Below are positions 28,609 through 62,051 of a stretch of 64,000 nt of DNA, one piece after another (the first letter of the stretch is position 1; each line of letters starts with the position of its first letter). The position numbers and the translations under genes were made by a program. Source of the DNA: Geothrix sp. SG200 (GTDB taxonomy: Bacteria; Acidobacteriota; Holophagae; Holophagales; Holophagaceae). The stretch is taken from assembly GCF_022808935.1 (NCBI RefSeq), contig NZ_JAKZFR010000001.1:124001-188000 (forward strand), given 5' to 3'. The notes beneath the pieces are model-generated. The model ran no database searches, was not told the origin of the DNA, and saw only the letters and a list, made by a program, of their open reading frames with translations.

Positions 28609-29679
28609 CTACAACTCCTCGACCTTCCCGCCCCGCCACACCATGAACCGCCCCTCGTGGGCCCAGGGCAGGGCGATGCCGTTGGCTTCGACCTCGTGGG
28701 TGTGGAAGTGGCCGGTGAGGAAGGTGGCCGGGGCATGGGCCTGGGCCGCGGCGCGGAAGGCCTCGCGCGGGAAGGTGAGCTTGTAGGCGGCGTTGGTGGT
28801 GCGGAGCTTCCGCTCCATCCAGGCGGACACCTTCCGGGCCATGCCGGCGGGCATCAGGCGGAACACCAGCCACAGGGCCCCCGAGCGGGACACCAGGTTC
28901 CACAGGCGGTACTGACGGTCCGCGGTGTTGATGAGGTCGCCGTGCTCCCAGGCCAGCCCTTCCCCCTCGAGGACGCCGCCGATCCCCTCGCCCATCAGGT
29001 CGAACCTGGCCGCGTGGCGGTCCAGGAAGTACTCGCGGTTCCCCATCCACAGGCCCACCCAGCGGCCCCCGGCGCGGCGGGCGTCCGCCCAGGCGAGGAA
29101 GGCCCGTTGCGCCTCCGTTTCCATGCCCGGAAAGCCCACCCACACGTCGAAGATGTCGCCGAGGAAGAGCCAGTCGGCCTCCGGATGGGCCGCGGTGGCC
29201 GCCTCCAGGCCAGTGAGCGCGGCGTTCCAGTGGGGGTCTGCGACCAGGATGAGGTCCCGGGCGGGGTCCGACCTGCGCGGCGCCCCGCGGCGCCAGGAGA
29301 GGGCTCCCAGGCGCCGGGTGAACAGCAGGTGGAGGGATCCAAGGGTCAGGCCCAACCCCCCGCCGAAGCAGTCCGCCAGCCAGTCGCCGAATTCGCAGGA
29401 GCGGCCGGGGACGAAGAACTGGTGCAGCTCGTCAGAGGCGCCGTAGAGGGCGACGGCGGCCAGGATCCACAGGTGCCGACGGTAGAGGGGCAGGCCGGTG
29501 GCGGTGTGGCGCAGCGTCCGGTCCAAGGCCAGGGCCAGCAGCGCGTACACCGAGGCATGGGCGGCCTTGTCCAGGGGCGGCGGCAGCTCGATCCCGCCCG
29601 GGTAGTGCCCTTGCGCACTCAGCCAGAAGATCATCCCGGCCAGGGCCAGGGGAAGGAGCCAGTACCCACGAAAGCGCAT
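28609..29679 (-). CDS. VanZ-like membrane domain fused to LpxH-like metallophosphoesterase
   Basis: One continuous 356-residue frame joins two domains. Residues 1 to about 125 are a VanZ-like membrane unit (WLLPLALAGMIFWLSAQ, DKAAHASVYALLALAL, LYGASDELHQFFVPGRSCE). From about 140 a calcineurin-type phosphoesterase follows with LVADPHW, LFLGDIFDVWVG, WMGNREYF, EHGDLINT and LTGHFHTHE. The GNRE and HGD spacing resemble LpxH, which cleaves UDP-2,3-diacylglucosamine to lipid X in lipid A synthesis; LpxH usually has GNRD and is a peripheral membrane protein. The ATG at 29679 gives a family-like VanZ start. The VanZ half may anchor the enzyme. Activity on UDP-diacyl-GlcN is inferred. Confidence 0.75.
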   Translation of the reverse strand: MRFRGYWLLPLALAGMIFWLSAQGHYPGGIELPPPLDKAAHASVYALLALALDRTLRHTATGLPLYRRHLWILAAVALYGASDELHQFFVPGRSCEFGDWLADCFGGGLGLTLGSLHLLFTRRLGALSWRRGAPRRSDPARDLILVADPHWNAALTGLEAATAAHPEADWLFLGDIFDVWVGFPGMETEAQRAFLAWADARRAGGRWVGLWMGNREYFLDRHAARFDLMGEGIGGVLEGEGLAWEHGDLINTADRQYRLWNLVSRSGALWLVFRLMPAGMARKVSAWMERKLRTTNAAYKLTFPREAFRAAAQAHAPATFLTGHFHTHEVEANGIALPWAHEGRFMVWRGGKVEEL

Positions 29680-29847: not shown

Positions 29848-30597
29848 ATGCCCAGGAGCTTCGATTCCCTCATCCCCAGCATCGAGCAGCGCGAGGCCGG
29901 ATGGATGCGCCTCCGGGAGCGCTTCGATCAGGCCCATCGGCCCCAGGCTCATCCGTCCGTGACCATCTCCAGGCAGTACGGGTGCGAGGGCTATGCGCTG
30001 GCCCAGCGGCTCAAGGTGCTGCTGGAGGAGGCCTCAGGACAGCCCTGGAACCTCTTCGACAAGGCCCTGGTGGACCAGGTGGCCTCGGACGAGAACCTGT
30101 CCCGCCAGCTCCTGGGCCATCTGGGGGATGAGAGCCACGCGCAGGATGTCCTCCGGACCCACTTCGGCCACCTTACCCACGATGATGCCTACGCCAAGGT
30201 GGTGAAGCACCTCGTCCAGATCGCCATGGTCGGCAGTGCCATCATCGTCGGCCGGGGCGGTGCCGTCGCCTGCCAGGACCTGAAGAACTGCTTCCATTTC
30301 CGCCTGGAGGCCGGCTTCGAATTCCGGATCTCGACCATCGCCCGCCGCCTGGACATCCCCCTGGCGGAGGCCGAGAAACTGGTCCGGAAGCAGTCGAAGC
30401 TGCGGGAGAAGTTCATCAGCGAGTGCCTCCACGCGGATGTCACGTCGTCCCGCTGGTACGACGCCGTGTTCAACAACGAGCGCCAGAGCGTGGAAACCAT
30501 CGCCCAGGCCTGTCGGCGGATCGTGGTCAGCGGCTGGCCCGATCCGGACTACTTCAGGCACGACCCGATGCGCGTGGGCCTGGTGATCCGGAGCTGA
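29848..30597 (+). CDS. Cytidylate-kinase-like family protein
   Basis: A 249-residue protein with the fold of the cytidylate-kinase-like family (Pfam 13189 type). The phosphate-loop region ISRQYGCEGYALAQRL corresponds to the ISRE-x-GS-x-G family motif but has Cys-Glu in place of Gly-Ser. VGRGGAVACQDLKNCFHFRLEA and the LID-like RRLDIPLAEAEKLVRK follow. GGAGG lies 6 bp before the ATG. These proteins often sit near regulators and some may be kinases of unknown substrate. True CMP kinase activity is doubtful; house-keeping Cmk would be shorter. Divergent from the VanZ-LpxH gene. Confidence 0.8.
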   Translation: MPRSFDSLIPSIEQREAGWMRLRERFDQAHRPQAHPSVTISRQYGCEGYALAQRLKVLLEEASGQPWNLFDKALVDQVASDENLSRQLLGHLGDESHAQDVLRTHFGHLTHDDAYAKVVKHLVQIAMVGSAIIVGRGGAVACQDLKNCFHFRLEAGFEFRISTIARRLDIPLAEAEKLVRKQSKLREKFISECLHADVTSSRWYDAVFNNERQSVETIAQACRRIVVSGWPDPDYFRHDPMRVGLVIRS

Positions 30598-59301: not shown

Positions 59302-59375
59302 GATCACTGATCATGAGTGAGGGCCAGTGGTCCTCATGGCGGCGGCCAACCACTTCCATTCACAGGGGGTATCCA

Positions 59376-62051
59376 ATGGTCTGGTCAAGAATCAGTCGAC
59401 GCGCGGCGACGCTCATTCGCCTCCTTTGTGTGCCTGTGCTCCTGGCACTGGGGATGGTGGGTGGCGCCCTATGGGGAGATGAGGCTCCGGCCGGGATCAC
59501 CGTCCTCACCCAGCCCACGGACCAGAAGGTGGGCCCGGGGCAGACGATGACCATGAAAGCCGAGGCTCCGCCCGAGAACCCAGTGGTGTACCTGGCTCCC
59601 TTCGTCACCGCGGGAAAGGCGGGGCTCGTGGCGAGCACCCCGGACTGGGGGCCGAAGGCCGTCTATGCCTGGACCTTGACCGGGGGGACGCTCACCTCAG
59701 GCCAGGGAAGCCCCGCCATCACCTTCACCGCTGGCGTGACCGGCGCCACCCTGACCGCCCAGGTGGTCGTCACGGCCTATGGCGGCAGCGGCTCCGGGAG
59801 CGCCTCCGCCTCCGTGGTGTCCGCCCCCAACGCCGAGCTGGCCCTGCCCTTGAAAACGCACCCAGGCGATGCCTGGATGAAGGCCAGCGTGCCCCACCAG
59901 CAGGGGATGACCTACCTCTGGTCCATCGTTCCCGGCAACGGCAGGGCCAGCATCACCGCCGGACAGGGTACCCACGTGATCAGCTTCTCGGCGGGCCCAT
60001 CGGCGGGCAGCTTCCACCTGAAGGTGGATGTCCAGAACCAGGCCGGGGATGCCGCCACCTCCATTCGGAAGGTCGCCATCCAGACGGGAACCTGGCTGGT
60101 CAAGAACGGAGGTGCTTCCGTCACGAGGTTCCCCTGCCAGTCCACGCGCCTCCCCAGTGGCCGCGTGCTGGTGACAGGCGGCGGTGGGAACAGTGCCGAG
60201 GTCTATGATCCCGAGACGGGCCATTGGAACCTCGTCGGCAGCATGGCGAATCCGCGGGACTGGCACACCTCCACCCTCCTCCGCACCGGCCAGGTGCTGG
60301 TGGCAGGCAATGGCACGGCCGAGCTCTACAACCCCGCTTCGGGAACCTGGCATCCCACGGGCAAACCGGGAACCTCGCGGCGCGCCTTTACGGCTACGCT
60401 ACTCCCGGACGGGAAGGTGCTCGCCGCAGGCGGTGACACGGCCACCGCGGAAATCTACGACCCTGCGACTGAGGCCTGGACGCCCACCGGCAGCATGGGG
60501 ATCGCACGGACCTTCCACACAGCCACGCTGCTGCTGGACGGGAAGGTCCTGGTGGCTGGCGGATCCGAAGACAACTCTGTCACGGAGCTCTACGACCCGG
60601 CGACTGGCACTTGGGCTTCCACCGGAAGCCTGAACCAGGCGCGGAACGAGTGCGCGGCCACGCTGCTCGCGGATGGGAAGGTCCTCGTGACGGGCGGTTC
60701 GATCCTCGTCTCGGGAACGTCCAGCGCCGAAATCTACGATCCCGGGACCGGGACCTGGACCCTCACGGCCACCATGGGGGAAGAACGCCGCCACCATACG
60801 ACCACCCTCCTTCCGGATGGGCGGGTGCTGATGGCGGGTGGTGAATACCATGACAATTTCCTCTTCAGCACGGCCATCTACGACCCCGTGGCATCGGCCT
60901 GGACACCCGCCGGCAGCCTGGGGACAGGACGGTTTGGCCATAAAGCCACCCTGCTCCAGGACGGGACTGTCCTGGTGACCGGCGGCCGCGGCTCCCTGTA
61001 CTTCCATGGCATCGCCAGTTCAGAAATCTACGACCCGGGAAACGGGACCTGGCGGCCCCTGGCCGGGCAGCCGATGGCCCCACGCGAGTTCCACACGGTA
61101 ACCCTTCTCGCGAACGGGCAGGCGCTGGTCGCGGGAGGAGAGAACTTTCCTCGAGGGAACCTGAACGACGCGGAGATCGCCGCCCCTGCGACTGGGTACT
61201 GGACGCCTGCGGAGAGCATGGGCACCACCCGCAGGGGTCACACGGCCACCTTGCTCGCGGATGGGAAAGTTCTGGTGGTAGGCGGTGACGCCCAGTCGCA
61301 ACCAGGTTTCACCACTGCTGAGCTCTACGATCCCGCTGGAGGGTCCTGGACTCCGGTTGGCAGTCTGAACGAGACGCGGATCGGTCATACCGCCACGCTG
61401 CTCCCGAACGGAAAGGTCCTGGTCGTGGGAGGCTTCGTCGGAGGCATCGCATCGGATAGCGCCGAACTCTACGACCCCGCCACCGCGACTTGGCGGCCCA
61501 CCACCAGTCTCGGGATCGCCCATGTCGGCCACACCTCCACCCTGCTTCCCAACGGGAAGGTGTTGGTGGCCGGTGGCGGGAGTTCCTCCGAACCAATCGC
61601 CAGCGCTGAACTCTACGACCCTGCTGGAGAGACCTGGACCGCCGTGGGCGCTCTCGGAACGGCCCGCCGGGGCCACCTGGCCACGCTGCTGCCGGATGGG
61701 AAGGTGCTCGTGACAGGCGGGACAGGGGCCTCCGGAACCCTGGACAGTGCTGAAGTCTTCGACCCAGCGACGAACGGCTGGCTCCCCACTTCCGCCATGG
61801 GATCGGCGCGCAGAGGCCACTCGGCGGACCTCCTCGCGAACGGCAAGGTTCTGGTGGTGGGAGGTCGGAATTCTTCCGACGCCATCCTCGGCAGCGCGGA
61901 AATCTACGATCCCGCCACGCAGGCCTGGACGCCGACGGATGGCCTGGCCTTGCCGCGGGCAGGCCACGGTTCCGTACGTTTCCCAAACGGAGACATCATG
62001 GTCGCCTTCGGCCCTGGTGGCGATCTCGTCACCGAGATCTACAGGCCCTAG
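59376..62051 (+). CDS. Secreted kelch-repeat (beta-propeller) protein
   Basis: An 891-residue exported protein. After an N-terminal membrane/signal segment ([22 protein letters not shown]) there are two Ig/PKD-like segments (about 40-250), then about 14 kelch-type repeats from about 265 to the end. Each has a core such as DGKVLVTGG, followed by AEIYDPATG-x-W-x-P-T-G-S and R-x-x-HTATLL. Fourteen units could form two seven-bladed propellers. GGGGG lies before the ATG at 59376. Its 3' end overlaps aroG by 23 bp on the opposite strand. Extracellular binding is inferred; galactose-oxidase catalytic residues were not seen. Confidence 0.85.

Follow-up and report, generated by a model that had tools for sequence, protein, structure and literature searches.

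The window, a stretch of 64,000 nucleotides from Geothrix sp. SG200, a bacterium of soils and sediments (genome of 3.36 Mb in 10 contigs), carries on its minus strand a gene of a single frame (28609..29679, ATG at 29679) that encodes 356 amino acids with no internal stop. Its product joins an N-terminal VanZ domain of the VanZ-2-like type of the Lipocone superfamily (residues 1-125; 29305..29679, minus strand, as for all features of the gene given below) through a basic linker (residues 120-141; 29257..29322) to an LpxH-type phosphoesterase domain (residues 141-356; 28612..29259). The closest named relatives of the protein are from Geothrix paludis (93%) and G. fermentans (91%). A first-pass annotation had proposed such a fusion, and we confirmed it: the 356 codons are uninterrupted, VanZ models match above cut-off and LpxH is matched in the PDB. 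A sequencing or assembly error that removed a stop between the domains was ruled out, as the frame is unbroken in 26 of the 27 sampled genomes of the family. In our alignment the junction is spanned in all 51 full-length fusion rows; one of these rows, from a metagenome-assembled genome (MAG; L103), breaks off after the junction, near the C-terminus. Divergent from the fusion lies a cytidylate-kinase-like gene (PF13189; window positions 29848-30597), which was near the fusion in only 6 of the 69 loci of the genome scan described below. EngB was detected near 37 of these 69, restricted to their Geothrix-like part. Window positions 59313-62051 encode a large Kelch-repeat protein of 912 amino acids with a PKD-like part.

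The VanZ domain, the only VanZ of the source genome, was recognized by PF04892 (residues 39-113; 39.5 bits, cut-off 30.1) and NF037970 (residues 36-107; 61.9 bits, cut-off 20). In the AlphaFold2 model of the fusion (pLDDT 91.4, pTM 0.88) it forms helices at residues 5-21, 36-59, 65-87 and 97-119. We aligned 51 fusions with 22 stand-alone VanZ proteins (20 chosen from VanZ-only matches, plus loci L187 and L194). The conserved VanZ residues lie at the predicted outer ends of three helices: K38-x-x-H41 in helix 2 (29557..29568), DELHQ at 83-87 in helix 3 (29419..29433) and D99-x-x-x-D103 in helix 4 (29371..29385). K38..H41 and D99..D103 agree with the VanZ-2 pattern of (R)KxxH and DxxxD (PMC12419801), with D, not R, preceding the lysine. 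The site (H41, DExHQ, D..D) is intact in 39 of the 51 fusions, three of which have W or Y in place of K38, as do several stand-alone VanZ.

The phosphoesterase half was not reported by the general phosphoesterase model of Pfam, and the LpxH models matched residues 163-330 below their cut-offs (NF003743, 43.6 bits against 134; TIGR01854, 29.6 bits against 190.35). A search of PDB sequences with the fusion protein gave nine matches, eight LpxH chains and an unrelated, weak acetyltransferase (E 0.53); with the family profile, all nine matches at E up to 0.01 were LpxH (E 2e-21 to 2e-14). Foldseek with the model returned 18 matches at E<=0.001, all of them LpxH, and a viral fold library returned none at that threshold. 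VIA-align against H. influenzae LpxH gave a Z of 20.8 and an alignment of 216 out of 237 residues, so that the fold match includes the cap; the best non-LpxH match had a Z of 11.8, and nothing can be concluded from families that are missing in the VIA-align list.

The motifs GDIFD, GNRE, HGD and GHFHTH lie where the first-pass annotation had placed them; it had overlooked the first of the metal motifs, D148-x-H150 (in ADPHW). All seven metal ligands listed for LpxH (PMC5016852) are kept: D148 and H150 (29230..29238; D8 and H10 of LpxH), D175 in GDIFD, which starts at 174 (29146..29160; D41), N214 in GNRE, from 213 (29032..29043; N79), H246 in EHGD, with HGD from 246 (28936..28947; H114), and H324 and H326 in GHFHTH, from 323 (28696..28713; H195 and H197). 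GNRE also holds R215, the equivalent of Arg80, which replaces a histidine in LpxH only (PMC5016852, PMC3087551). These ligands and R215 are invariant across 58 aligned rows, H324 nearly so, since row L103 is broken there. GNRE had been taken for an oddity, which is wrong: the superfamily signature is GNH(E/D) (PMC3087551) and close relatives, for example L031, have GNRD. The helical cap (residues 255-300; 28780..28917), delimited by alignments, the AlphaFold2 model and VIA-align, has conserved Y257 and N296. By sequence alignment only, these two correspond to the lipid X contacts Y125 and T/N164 (contacts from PMC6286764), and R157, S160 and K167 of P. aeruginosa LpxH align with E289, L292 and Y299, K300 adjoining the last. 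The domain thus shares with LpxH of E. coli, P. aeruginosa, H. influenzae and K. pneumoniae the fold with its cap, the seven ligands, the arginine after GN and the Y125/N164 equivalents, but differs in its low identity (14-24%), in other cap residues, in the four-helix VanZ in front and in missing the model cut-offs.

Between helices 2 and 3 of the VanZ domain lies the sequence P64-x-Y66-R67-R68-H69 (29473..29490). This loop, P-x-[YH]-[RK]-R-H, is present in 51 of 51 fusions and in none of the 22 stand-alone VanZ, although all 22 keep H41, DExHQ and D..D. Judged by this distribution the site and the loop are under separate constraint, the site following VanZ and the loop following the attached phosphoesterase, for which we infer that the loop is a docking surface. 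At the loop position LPRLRRLL is found in L194, which belongs to the same family and among stand-alone VanZ comes closest to the fusion type; its locus (G300:C158:14963-19220) encodes a fusion-type VanZ that ends where a fusion would continue, which may be a split gene or a pre-fusion state.

The mean number of lysines and arginines is 1.9 in the N-terminus, 0.3 in loop 1, 2.7 in loop 2, 1.2 in loop 3 and 5.9 in the linker. This charge distribution predicts an inside location for the N-terminus, for loop 2 and for the linker that follows helix 4, with the phosphoesterase cytoplasmic and the VanZ residues on the outer face, at the ends of helices 2-4. The acids in the VanZ helices of the window protein hid them from a simple hydropathy scan at a threshold of 1.5, which found no helix; their assignment comes from the model.

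A scan of 84,980 species genomes returned 69 loci, 62 of them of the fusion type, with twelve partial or near-duplicate ones left out of our alignment (A4). The fusions were all from genomes named Holophagaceae, Geothrix, Holophaga, Holophagales or Acidobacteria, save for two MAGs, of which one (L080) bears a Deltaproteobacteria label and the other (L092) a Bacillota label. The Deltaproteobacteria label is probably wrong, because L080 adjoins a Holophaga sequence in the tree; L092 is 63% identical and is absent from the tree. The first-pass annotation had suggested looking for the fusion across Acidobacteriota, and in our sample of 297 genomes of this phylum it was found in 26 of the 27 sampled Holophagaceae, namely 20 of 21 members of the genus (the source included) and six of six other members of the family. 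One Geothrix genome (G260; 96% complete, 350 contigs) had no fusion match, through an assembly gap or a real loss. Outside the family the relatives are stand-alone phosphoesterases. In a tree built from E. coli LpxH, 73 stand-alone proteins and 51 fusions (125 rows in all) the fusions formed one clade, with an SH-aLRT of 100 and a single change, and the fusion thus arose once.

The remaining 12 of the 51 fusions have lost the VanZ site. On the careful tree the losses amount to four changes (three to four across bootstrap trees, 5-95% range), at least two of which are forced by the starred branches; on the quick tree they are four by the group table for the label and three when only fusions are counted. 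The site was probably lost three to four times. All twelve site-less fusions retain the helices, the phosphoesterase and the P-x-[YH]-[RK]-R-H loop. The acids in their helices 3 and 4 fall from means of 2.0 and 2.0 to 0.25 and 0, leaving plain hydrophobic helices. The model of a degenerate fusion (L105; pLDDT 91.9) shows three helices at the N-terminus and no change in the phosphoesterase pattern. PF04892 matched 16 of the 32 members of a further alignment (A5), equal to the count of its intact-site rows, and had no match in seven of seven genomes of the genera g5 and g7. VanZ catalysis is, therefore, separable from the hydrolase, and little can be learned from the fusion about the chemistry of VanZ, because these proteins lost the site and yet retain the helices, the loop and the phosphoesterase. 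The earlier suggestion that the fusion points to a function for VanZ domains is weakened by these losses, as it is by the absence of any VanZ gene beside stand-alone LpxH-like genes (below). Compared with the known VanZ and VanZ-2 proteins, the fusions have the same four helices with KxxH, DExxQ and DxxxD, but differ in the attached LpxH-type domain, in the loop and in these losses.

The first-pass annotation had also raised the possibility of a separate, canonical LpxH. The fusion is the only LpxH-like gene of the source genome, which gave no match to LpxI (PF06230), carries one LpxB and one LpxK, and has nine other phosphoesterases, none of which reaches the LpxH or LpxG cut-off. LpxB and LpxK were each found in 26 of 28 genomes of the family, including three of only 0.9-1.2 Mb. 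Across the 297 genomes, LpxI was present in 162 and the LpxH-like profile matched in 107 (103 without four weak matches of family f2, with GNWD, that may not belong), while none had both and 28 had neither. By family the split was 47 with LpxI to 33 with the LpxH-like protein, again none with both, and the exclusion counts are clustered by family and so not independent. This is the pattern expected from two unrelated enzymes for one step. As a control, weak LpxG/YaeI-like matches (below cut-off) showed no such exclusion, being found in 125 of the 162 LpxI genomes and 80 of the 107 LpxH-like genomes; the LpxG cut-off itself (NF033458, 350 bits) was reached in none of the 297. LpxK was found in 275 of the 297, and was missing from 14 of the 28 genomes with neither enzyme (12 listed, two by elimination) versus 8 of the other 269. 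Fourteen genomes have LpxK and neither enzyme, some of them nearly complete (G193, 99%; G293, 98%; the Geothrix genome G260, 96%), and a further replacement for step 4 may exist in them.

An operon with lipid A genes was rejected: a tblastn search of 143 flanking loci with E. coli LpxA, LpxB, LpxC, LpxD, LpxK, WaaA and FabZ detected no such gene, its matches being limited to ABC transporters that resemble MsbA and a single WaaQ. Likewise, E. coli LpxA, LpxD, LpxC and WaaA had no match in 17 kb around lpxB or lpxK of the source genome.

Stand-alone LpxH-like genes were present in 81 of the 107 LpxH-like genomes. They share with the fusions the profile family, the HGD and GHFH blocks, the cap asparagine with a basic residue and the absence of LpxI, but differ in that none of the 73 fetched loci encodes an N-terminal VanZ domain. 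The fetched flanks of these 73 genes contained no VanZ gene either, the lone match, L187, being a VanZ-only locus. The arginine of GNR is found in 63 of the 73, and 10 are without it (six GNH, four GNW). L133, L134, L137, L144, L179 (family f19) and L173 have GNH, not GNR, in genomes without LpxI; such relatives offer a naturally occurring test of this arginine, which is regarded as the mark of LpxH. L181-L184 (family f2) are weak relatives in which GNWD replaces GNRD and the HGD motif is absent.

The protein is predicted to work like LpxH, whose job it most likely does, while formal membership fails on the model cut-offs. We consider it likely that the product of the gene is a form of LpxH integral to the membrane, an Mn-dependent UDP-2,3-diacylglucosamine hydrolase that is the only enzyme for step 4 in Holophagaceae, because it has the LpxH fold with its cap, the metal site and the arginine, is encoded by the sole LpxH-like gene in a genome with LpxB and LpxK and without LpxI, and belongs to a family that replaces LpxI. 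The phosphoesterase would carry out the fourth step of lipid A synthesis, an essential one in making the lipid of the outer membrane, and release lipid X and UMP from UDP-2,3-diacylglucosamine. The four VanZ helices would place both termini in the cytoplasm and the phosphoesterase at the inner leaflet, where substrate and product lie, with the loop docking or positioning it. The VanZ site would face the periplasm, conserved in most species and dispensable for the hydrolase; it probably has a separate activity on lipid head groups or is becoming a plain anchor. The membrane tethering of an LpxH-type hydrolase that the first-pass annotation had envisaged is thus a prediction with good support, drawn from the fold, the residues, the topology, the genome context and the complementarity with LpxI. 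Against an LpxH role speak the cut-offs, which are far missed, the three differing lipid contacts, the 10 of 73 relatives without the arginine, the flanks without lipid A genes and the 14 genomes in which LpxK occurs with neither enzyme.

An LpxH fold alone need not mean LpxH activity, as is illustrated by LpxH2 (PMC6286764), which in P. aeruginosa fails to complement lpxH (PMC6286764, PMC3087551). The fusion could similarly be a paralogue acting on another lipid-linked nucleotide or sugar pyrophosphate, with step 4 performed by an unrecognised enzyme, and the missed cut-offs and the unmatched R157, S160 and K167 would fit this. We regard it as unlikely, since block 3 of LpxH2 is GNH whereas the fusion family has GNR (GNRE or GNRD) in 58 of 58 rows, as do most stand-alone relatives, and since another substrate would leave the lack of co-occurrence with LpxI (0/297) unexplained. 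A comparison may also be drawn with Chlamydia LpxG, a membrane-associated calcineurin-like phosphoesterase that performs step 4 in a genome lacking both LpxH and LpxI (PMC4807358). LpxG, however, has a single N-terminal helix, a different cap and no VanZ, and the fusion protein had no match to NF033458 up to E 0.1. The source genome encodes two proteins of the LpxG or YaeI type elsewhere (L008, 76.8 bits; L010, 47.8 bits with NF033458), and one of these might perform step 4, leaving the fusion an accessory role. This is very improbable: both fall far under a cut-off that no genome of the sample reaches, such weak matches are equally common with and without LpxI, and one genome of 1.2 Mb (G174) has no LpxG-like match at all while keeping LpxB, LpxK and an LpxH-like gene of this family.

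The protein might also be bifunctional, its VanZ domain acting on or sensing a lipid of the periplasmic leaflet and setting, through the loop, the rate of the cytoplasmic hydrolase. This extends the membrane-integral LpxH and is not its opposite, so the probabilities of the two need not sum to one. The site is intact in most fusions and is predicted to lie on the face of the membrane opposite to the hydrolase, the loop is specific to fusions, and membrane Lipocones are predicted to target outer-leaflet head groups (PMC12419801). The repeated loss of the site with retention of the hydrolase, and the seven genomes of g5 and g7 without a PF04892 match, make such coupling rather doubtful. A two-sided controller of the envelope, in which one polypeptide couples both leaflets and adjusts lipid A synthesis through the loop, is a tentative and rather unlikely proposal; if it were true, the sensor would be gone and the enzyme retained in some relatives, including ones with very small genomes.

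We found no description of the VanZ-LpxH-type fusion in the literature searched. No paper pairing VanZ with LpxH was found, and a search for VanZ, calcineurin and phosphoesterase gave only PMC12419801, in whose main text neither LpxH nor Acidobacteria appears. LpxI, LpxH and Acidobacteria together led only to PMC3087551, a survey of 2010 that reported lpxH from no group but the beta- and gammaproteobacteria, and no paper was found on LpxI and lipid A in Acidobacteriota. Our results suggest that LpxI is replaced, in about one-third of the sampled Acidobacteriota (107/297), by a large LpxH-type family whose members mostly have the diagnostic arginine. The natural losses of the VanZ site and the fusion-specific loop offer direct tests of what the VanZ domain contributes. 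The LpxH-type family appears to fill a gap in the lipid A pathway of Acidobacteriota, and to include a form that is an integral membrane protein.
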